Shown: piece by piece, positions 29,257 to 30,169 of the stretch
Layout: the number at the start of each line of letters is the position of its first letter
How positions within the stretch are numbered: the first letter of the stretch is position 1
Source: Microbacterium fluvii
GTDB taxonomy: Bacteria; Actinomycetota; Actinomycetes; Actinomycetales; Microbacteriaceae
Assembly: GCF_025515205.1 (NCBI RefSeq)
Contig: NZ_JAOPFX010000001.1
Span: 620,001-684,000, forward strand
DNA: 64,000 bases
Direction of reading: 5' to 3'
The notes under the pieces: generated by a model
What the model was told of the DNA's origin: nothing
Database searches by the model: none
The model's input: only the letters and a program-made list of their open reading frames with translations
Translations under genes and position numbers: made by a program

Positions 29257-29262
29257 TAGGGT
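29257..29262 (+). promoter_or_regulatory. Candidate atp operon -10 box
   Basis: TAGGGT starts directly after the AtpI-like stop codon and would give a leader of about 95 nt before atpB. No good -35 is seen; readthrough from the upstream genes is also possible. Confidence 0.35.
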
Positions 29263-29362
29263 TGTCTCGCGCCCGCGCCTCTCGTCCAGAGCGATCGCGC
29301 GGTGTCGCCCACCGACCATCGTCGCCCCGGATTCATCCGGTGCCCCGAAGCTGGAGCCAGCG

Positions 29363-30169
29363 CTGTTCACCCAAGCTGCGACACTGATCACCCACGCCGC
29401 TGAAGACGGAGGGTTCCACGCCCCGTCGATCAACGAGTTCTTCCCCGCGGTCCTCTTCGAGATCGGCGGCATCCCGGTCACGCGCGTGCACCTCATCCAG
29501 TTCATCGCGACGATCGCCCTCGTGCTGGTGTTCTGGCTCGGCACGCGCGGCATGACGATCGTGCCCCGTCGCTTCCAGAGCGTCGTCGAGATGGGTCTGG
29601 GCTTCGCCCGCGACAACATCGCGCACGACCTGCTCGGCAAGAAGGACGGAGATCGGTTCCTGCCGATCCTCACGACGATCTTCTTCATGATCCTGTTCAT
29701 GAACATCACGGGCATCATCCCGTTCCTGAACCTCGCCGGCACCGCCATCATCGCCGTGCCGCTGCTGCTGGCCATCGTCAGCTACGTGACCTTCATCTAC
29801 GCCGGCATCAAGAAGAGCCCCAAGAACTTCTTCAAGAACTCGCTGTTCCCCGCCGGCGTCCCGTGGCCGATCTACATCATCGTCACGCCGATCGAGCTGA
29901 TCTCGACCTTCATCATCCGCCCGGTCACGCTCACGCTGCGACTGCTCATGAACATGATGGTCGGCCACCTGCTGCTGGTGCTGTTCTTCTCGGCCACGCA
30001 GTTCTTCCTCTTCACGATGGGCGGCTGGTGGTCGCTGCTGGCGGCGGGCTCGCTCGCCTTCGGCTTCGCCTTCACGCTGTTCGAAATCCTGGTGGCCGTC
30101 CTCCAGGCCTATGTCTTCGCCCTCCTCACCGCGGTCTACATCCAGCTCGCGGTGGCGGAAGAGCACTAA
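29363..30169 (+). CDS. atpB: ATP synthase subunit a, apparent CTG start
   Basis: 268 residues, Fo subunit a with about five helices. The essential Arg facing the c-ring is Arg193 in [17 protein letters not shown]. The conserved N-terminal part reads [19 protein letters not shown], then [17 protein letters not shown]. No ATG, GTG or TTG exists in frame from the AtpI-like stop to GTG 29486, and starting at 29486 would delete this conserved segment. CTG 29363 has GGAG 6 nt upstream and gives a normal-looking N-terminus ([16 protein letters not shown] follows), so CTG initiation is the best reading. Confidence 0.9.

Follow-up and report, generated by a model that had tools for sequence, protein, structure and literature searches.

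In Escherichia coli, the AUU start of infC is said to mediate autocontrol by IF3, as described in work attributed to Butler (1987) and Brombach (1987). The atpB gene analyzed here is like infC in that a near-cognate, weak start codon is kept in a core gene, and in infC the weakness itself is reportedly functional. In contrast to infC, atpB has CTG as its codon, and its product does not act in initiation, which is why autocontrol exerted directly through discrimination of codons would not be expected of it; the product being subunit a of the ATP synthase, we rejected control of the IF3 type for this gene. Gvozdjak and Samanta (arXiv, 2020) reportedly described bacterial genes whose orthologs prefer non-AUG starts, a preference that atpB orthologs share.

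Several systems resemble atpB in individual respects. For chloroplast genes with GUG and UUG starts, tuning of output by the start codon has been proposed, much as it is here for atpB, but in the same source CUG gave no detectable reporter activity in either chloroplasts or E. coli (PMC9845219, in the portion available). In the atp operon of Streptomyces coelicolor, footprints from atpB onward follow the stoichiometry of the subunits (AtpB:AtpE 1:10) while mRNA levels are comparable, the proportions being set at translation; in the accessible part of that article, no link between this stoichiometry and a CTG start was seen (PMC4895711). The dnaA leader of Caulobacter also places a CUG with a Shine-Dalgarno sequence in a structured leader, and this CUG gives a toeprint band. 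According to the available excerpt, however, the dnaA CUG is unused in vivo and an AUG serves instead (PMC8443254), whereas atpB has no conventional start before its conserved segment. Among the matches listed by a literature search of limited coverage, none concerned a CTG start of atpB or its leader.

The atpB locus and its start codon

The window, by which we mean the whole 64,000-nucleotide stretch of Microbacterium fluvii DNA that was analyzed (source genome of 3.33 Mb in 5 contigs), carries an ATP synthase region at approximately 28.7-34.5 kb, and all features given below lie on its forward strand. The nearest named relatives are mostly Microbacterium, judged from the best 80 of 379 relatives. 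The gene encoding Fo subunit a, atpB (29363-30169, 268 residues), has a product that scores 185.6 bits against PF00119 (E 1.5e-54, cut-off 33.9) and 129.5 against TIGR01131 (cut-off 102.6), and that stays under the cut-off of the narrower model NF004482 (164.6 against 225). It is followed by atpE (30214-30450, GTG start, PF00137), atpF (30479-31033, ATG start, PF00430) and atpH (PF00213), a gene order that places atpB in the operon position of subunit a. Upstream, flanked by atpB and a glycosyltransferase family 4 gene, lies an ATP-synthase-associated gene of the Cg1360 family (28756-29256), which scores 111.5 bits with NCBIfam model NF053722 (cut-off 40) and for which there was no Pfam match at E 0.001.

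When only ATG, GTG and TTG are allowed as starts, the atpB reading frame begins at GTG 29486-29488 and nowhere earlier, which would leave the protein 41 residues shorter. The first-pass annotation of this DNA had stated that none of these three codons precedes GTG 29486, and reading the codons in frame bore this out. The start-less stretch is in fact longer than was then described, because the true in-frame stop is TGA 29153-29155; the TGA at 29254-29256, from which the stretch had been counted, ends the upstream gene in another frame. Near-start codons within it are CTG at 29351, 29363 and 29384, together with six ATC. The 41 residues at issue include a FHAPS..EFFP segment, a pattern found family-wide and partly in other families, which agrees with the earlier view that the conserved N-terminus of subunit a lies before GTG 29486. 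The GGAG previously seen 6 nt upstream of CTG 29363 is likewise present, as a Shine-Dalgarno core at 29353-29356. The proposal that atpB starts at CTG 29363-29365 gains strong support from relatives, and we conclude that translation almost certainly begins there.

Our sample of Microbacteriaceae comprised 120 genomes in 78 genera, 119 of which yielded 121 atpB places; 110 of these were used and 11 left out, covering 77 of the 78 genera by our reading. Adding 80 named relatives (the best 80 of 379, and thus close relatives only) gave 190 family loci, which are not all independent, since the named loci are mostly from Microbacterium and Agromyces and may share species with the other genomes. Starts were chosen by a picker that scores the Shine-Dalgarno sequence, considers ATG, GTG, TTG and CTG, and favors the first three. 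CTG was chosen at 179 of the 190 loci, or 183 after four were re-anchored by hand: L090 and L091, which read GTG-CTG and are counted as CTG, and L106 and L111, re-anchored on the motif. The other seven were one GTG (L161), one ATG (L162), two TTG (L165 and L171) and three that could not be scored (L175, L181 and L186). CTG stands behind a Shine-Dalgarno sequence in all 80 named relatives (the best 80 of 379), and six extra family loci from an order-level search gave five CTG (L195 by a tie) and one TTG (L196, whose genome falls in the same genus group as the window). The tie cases L195 and L306 were set by hand to CTG, and L196 to TTG. The spacing from GGAG to CTG is 6 nt at 167 of the 183 CTG loci and 7 nt at 14, with GGAG absent from the searched stretch at two. 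At the codon where relatives had been expected to reveal any GTG or ATG, nearly all family loci therefore carry CTG, with single cases of GTG, TTG and ATG, and the same CTG in independent genomes excludes a sequencing error hiding an ATG or GTG.

Because the picker is restricted to NTG codons, so that the second and third letters are TG by construction, we added a codon-blind check: of the in-frame codons lying 5-7 nt after GGAG, it takes the one closest to the aligned first residue, irrespective of which letters it has. This check returned CTG at 185 of the 190 family loci with GGAG in range (80/80 named, 100/104, and 5/6 from the order sample), while such a GGAG was missing at 6 of 196 family loci, all six among the 110. 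The exceptions were GTG (L161), TTG (L196), CAG (L165), CTT (L171) and ATC (L186); at L165 and L171, TTG is the codon immediately following the codon-blind position. Plain tblastn alignments reaching query residue 1 were available for 103 family loci: at 93 the aligned codon was CTG, and at the other 10 it was CTA, TTA or CTC, where the aligner probably slid to the next leucine. Judged from the sequences that have replaced it (TTG in L196, L165 and L171, GTG in L161, ATG in L162), CTG is dispensable.

Some individual records deserve mention. At L175, in a family genome of 0.9 Mb, the stretch examined before atpB holds no recognizable Shine-Dalgarno sequence, leader block or CTG. Genome G119 has two atpB copies (L181 and L186), and a CTG start with a Shine-Dalgarno sequence was found in neither. 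A record titled Stenotrophomonas maltophilia (L006, JACEFY010000052.1) carries a Microbacterium-like atpB of 84% identity with the same CTG leader, and is probably a contamination or mislabelling.

Outside Microbacteriaceae, we scored 106 loci from order and class searches, using the family codes of the search tool. The picks were CTG at 40, GTG at 38, TTG at 14 and ATG at 8, with 6 not scorable. Six loci of f7 (L248, L261, L314, L315, L316 and L318) had been set to GTG by hand. A manual tally by family put CTG at 4 of 10 loci in f7, 10 of 10 in f9 (one by tie), 9 of 9 in f12, 7 of 10 in f13, 3 of 3 in f18, 4 of 4 in f21 and 3 of 9 in f35, and the codon-blind check gave CTG at 40 of the 91 outside loci with GGAG in range. 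Between families the flanking letters change, while the Shine-Dalgarno sequence, its spacing and the CTG stay. The Shine-Dalgarno-scored NTG picks at 222 loci of all families amount to 148 CTG, 39 GTG, 17 TTG and 9 ATG, with 9 unscored, and on a FastTree tree of the 222 AtpB proteins (213 scored) the two-state trait of CTG versus other needs at least 12 changes. Since relatives across the family and several neighboring families share the CTG start, this odd codon is, on comparative grounds, a maintained feature and not an error.

A proposed role of weak initiation in the supply of subunit a

The explanation that we favor as a whole, and consider probable, combines a CTG start used by Shine-Dalgarno initiation with a dosage-limiting weak codon under stabilizing selection. 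In what is the simplest account of the mechanism, ordinary Shine-Dalgarno initiation would occur at CUG 29363 with the normal initiator tRNA. Its pairing with CUG would be mismatched at the first position, and the residue inserted should be formyl-methionine. The genome itself holds two standard initiator anticodon arms, GGGCTCATAACCC. A CUG-tolerant initiator tRNA of the M1 type (C30-G40) was also considered and rejected, as both arms are standard and neither has the altered GGG/CCC anticodon stem.

The weak codon would then restrain the synthesis of subunit a, of which each enzyme has one copy, in relation to that of subunit c from the shared messenger, and stabilizing selection would hold the codon for low subunit a synthesis. 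Initiation complexes on CUG are reported to be less stable than those on AUG, GUG and UUG, with neither of the tested initiator tRNAs efficient on it (PMC11497404, in the part available). Given such weak CUG starts in E. coli and the S. coelicolor footprints proportional to stoichiometry, CTG may lower AtpB synthesis toward one per enzyme. Tuning of Fo stoichiometry by a rare start, as the first-pass annotation suggested, would be plausible, and for the dosage role of the weak codon taken on its own we put the chances at about even.

The main rival to selection for low dosage is inertia, according to which CTG is a tolerated ancestral start that a good Shine-Dalgarno sequence and A/T-rich early codons compensate for, without any tuning. 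We regard this as possible but somewhat doubtful. The spread of CTG over several families indicates that it is probably old, and the Shine-Dalgarno sequence and its spacing have been maintained along with it, both as inertia would have it. The start codons of the neighboring genes are also about as stable on the same family loci, with atpE GTG at 34 of 36, atpF ATG at 32 of 36 and atpB CTG at 35 of 36. The fewest changes needed on one tree are 9 for atpE (78 loci), 7 for atpF (46 loci, including outside-family atpF picks that were otherwise unused) and 10 for atpB (80 loci). Start detection was poor outside the family for atpF and atpH (35/45 and 17/40 unscored, one CTG pick each), as it was for atpH inside the family (20/36 unscored), and the atpH picks were not used. 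Each of these two neighbors has its own stable start codon in the family loci examined, mostly GTG in atpE and mostly ATG in atpF.

With the starts of the neighboring genes about as constant as that of atpB, conservation taken alone is no proof of tuning or of selection for weakness. Nor does start strength follow copy number in the operon, since atpE, needed in about ten copies, uses GTG, which is expected to be weaker than the ATG used by most atpF. Nevertheless, inertia has to contend with the ease of escape from CTG: replacing the C by A, G or T is enough to yield a conventional start, yet of 113 scorable family loci only 5 show such a codon at the CTG place. It also has to contend with the rarity of the codon, as CUG is stated to start 0.024% of ORFs in 69 model genomes (PMC9845219, available portion). 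Set beside the start codons of atpE and atpF, CTG is kept as well as conventional starts are, which is remarkable for so weak a codon.

The structured leader in Microbacteriaceae

An extended -10-like promoter element, TGATAGGGT (29254-29262), overlaps the stop TGA of the upstream gene, and atpB would probably be expressed from its own transcript begun at this element. The sequence TGNTANNNT is found 40-150 nt upstream of the start at 163 of 190 family loci, in comparison with 2 of 190 in a coding control and 9.7 expected from shuffles. We infer a transcript start approximately 7 nt past TGATAGGGT, near 29269, and a leader of approximately 94 nt; in such a leader, GGAG would be closely preceded by a hairpin and a CCCCGA block. 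One group of genera (e.g. loci L113, L116 and L127) has its -10-like element no more than roughly 60-76 nt upstream of CTG, along with a shorter hairpin such as GCGTG..CACGC, and leader length thus falls into two classes.

The hairpin, GCCCCGGATTCATCCGGTGC (29324-29343), lies 5' of the ribosome-binding site and was identified by covariation and fold z-scores. In alignment A1, which retains 70 of the 190 loci (90 near-identical and 13 divergent loci were dropped, and 17 more by hand), its covariation is 0.414, as compared to 0.180 ± 0.017 for shuffled alignments (0/500 as high) and at most 0.205 for slid partners, all on these 70 selected rows. Of five covariation measures, three are higher than in any of the 500 shuffles, whereas two are hardly above the shuffled values, namely double-change pairs (7 versus 5.5, with 30/500 as high) and further pair types (22 versus 20.3, with 114/500 as high). 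Support for the hairpin accordingly comes from the first three measures and from an unselected fold test, in which the region folded better than shuffles over 100 of 100 non-redundant representatives (mean z -1.64, versus -0.72, -0.68 and 0.03 in three control regions). The 76% of paired cells in A1 is an upper figure, as its rows were selected. RNAalifold on a mixed alignment recovered only a two-pair CC-GG helix and not the hairpin, and the whole leader of the window folds no better than shuffles (z 0.13). From the comparison of relatives, we take the hairpin to be demonstrated, along with the Shine-Dalgarno spacing, the position of the start and the conservation. We also considered masking of GGAG by a CUCC in the hairpin, but inspection by eye showed no CUCC at that place in many genera, and the notion was dropped. 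The hairpin might act in regulation, in protection of the messenger or as a ribosome standby site.

The conserved CCCCGA block, recognized in alignment A1, occupies 29343-29348 of the window. Among the 183 CTG loci, 164 have a block of the form CC(C/T)(G/A)(A/G) that ends 13, 14, 15 or 16 nt before CTG (1, 144, 17 and 2 loci, respectively), and 19 have no recognizable block.

A covariance model of the leader had one strong match in its own genome, before atpB (E 2.4e-14), with the next best at 0.027, and a regulon sharing the leader was rejected on this basis. When 149 genomes from the order were scanned, 56 had some leader match at E up to 0.1. Matches below 1e-8 occurred in nine of the ten family genomes included, all at atpB, with none in the tenth (G182, the genome of the TTG locus L196). 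One weak match adjoins atpB in G199 of family f7 (E 4.7e-4), and others that lie elsewhere, for instance in G245 (7.0e-4) and G187 (0.0012), look like chance. Rfam 15 gave three matches at E up to 1 in window positions 28700-30600, all under their gathering scores and none at the leader, and there was no match in six relatives. As far as Rfam 15 and a limited literature search show, the covarying hairpin is apparently a previously undescribed element.

The combination of CTG with a covarying hairpin raises a further alternative to a constitutively weak start, in which the two form a regulated switch: a factor or the folding of the leader would condition initiation at CUG, and atpB would sense the state of growth or translation. 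The hairpin covariation, the unselected fold z-scores and the position of the only strong genome match before atpB are all consistent with such a switch. Furthermore, the CCCCGA-type block is absent from 4 of 5 family loci that have lost CTG versus 22 of 108 CTG loci (Fisher p 0.0097). This association nonetheless comes down to 4 independent contrasts with support, for which the sign test gives a median p of 0.25, and 28 of 40 CTG loci in other families lack the block. Coupling between CTG and the leader is suggestive only, and we consider a switch unlikely.

Other start positions and the meaning of a maintained CTG

Two further alternatives place the start itself elsewhere. Translation could begin upstream at another unusual codon (ATC 29294, ATC 29318 or CTG 29351), with CTG 29363 an internal leucine, for the atpB frame is open from 29156. 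In the window, however, a GGAG-like Shine-Dalgarno sequence is absent by eye before each of these codons, and the codon at the position of CTG 29351 is CAG in many other genera. At 91 of 179 loci, there is no ATG, GTG or TTG between the in-frame stop and CTG; the other 88 do have an upstream conventional codon, 75 of them without a Shine-Dalgarno sequence of at least 4 bases before it. The distance from leader block to CTG shifts out of frame (13-16 nt), which means that the leader is non-coding. Stops also intervene at or within the Shine-Dalgarno region of relatives: in L122 a TAA immediately precedes GCG-CTG, refuting an upstream start for that locus, while L177 and L182 each have a stop that overlaps the Shine-Dalgarno sequence. 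The frame-breaking indels of one or two bases just upstream and the stop in L122 exclude a start further upstream.

Codon usage argues in the same direction. CTC accounts for 45% and CTG for 42% of the leucine codons within the body of the family atpB genes, so that CTC would be common at an internal leucine position, yet it occurs at the codon-blind start position in 0 of 190 family loci. Rare leucine codons are enriched after CTG, as expected near a translation start: of the 290 leucines in codons 2-13, 32 are encoded by TTA and 43 by CTA, compared to 11 and 44 of 3812 in the gene body. Accordingly, we judge an upstream start very improbable. A start at GTG 29486, with the conserved upstream segment left untranslated, has a negligible chance of being correct, for although this is the first conventional in-frame start and the family models match the short form too, the preceding segment encodes an FHxPSxxEFFP-like stretch that is conserved as protein in the family and partly elsewhere, and a GGAG-like Shine-Dalgarno sequence is absent by eye just before 29486.

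The CTG start of atpB is thus a new, widely conserved case of a non-canonical start, accompanied in one family by a leader element that is apparently undescribed. Bacterial genes very rarely start at CTG, and such starts are readily dismissed as curiosities of annotation. A search limited to ATG, GTG and TTG puts the atpB start of the window 41 residues too late, and by the same error AtpB N-termini may be wrong in many actinobacterial genomes. As CTG is maintained in a core gene throughout many genera and several families, the costs and benefits of a weak start become testable in a natural system with a defined stoichiometry. More speculatively, the retention of CTG over many genera and families, combined in Microbacteriaceae with an undescribed structured leader, might represent a device that governs ATP synthase assembly at translation, with an output that would vary with the condition of the initiation machinery or with the folding of the leader. 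We consider this possibility unlikely.
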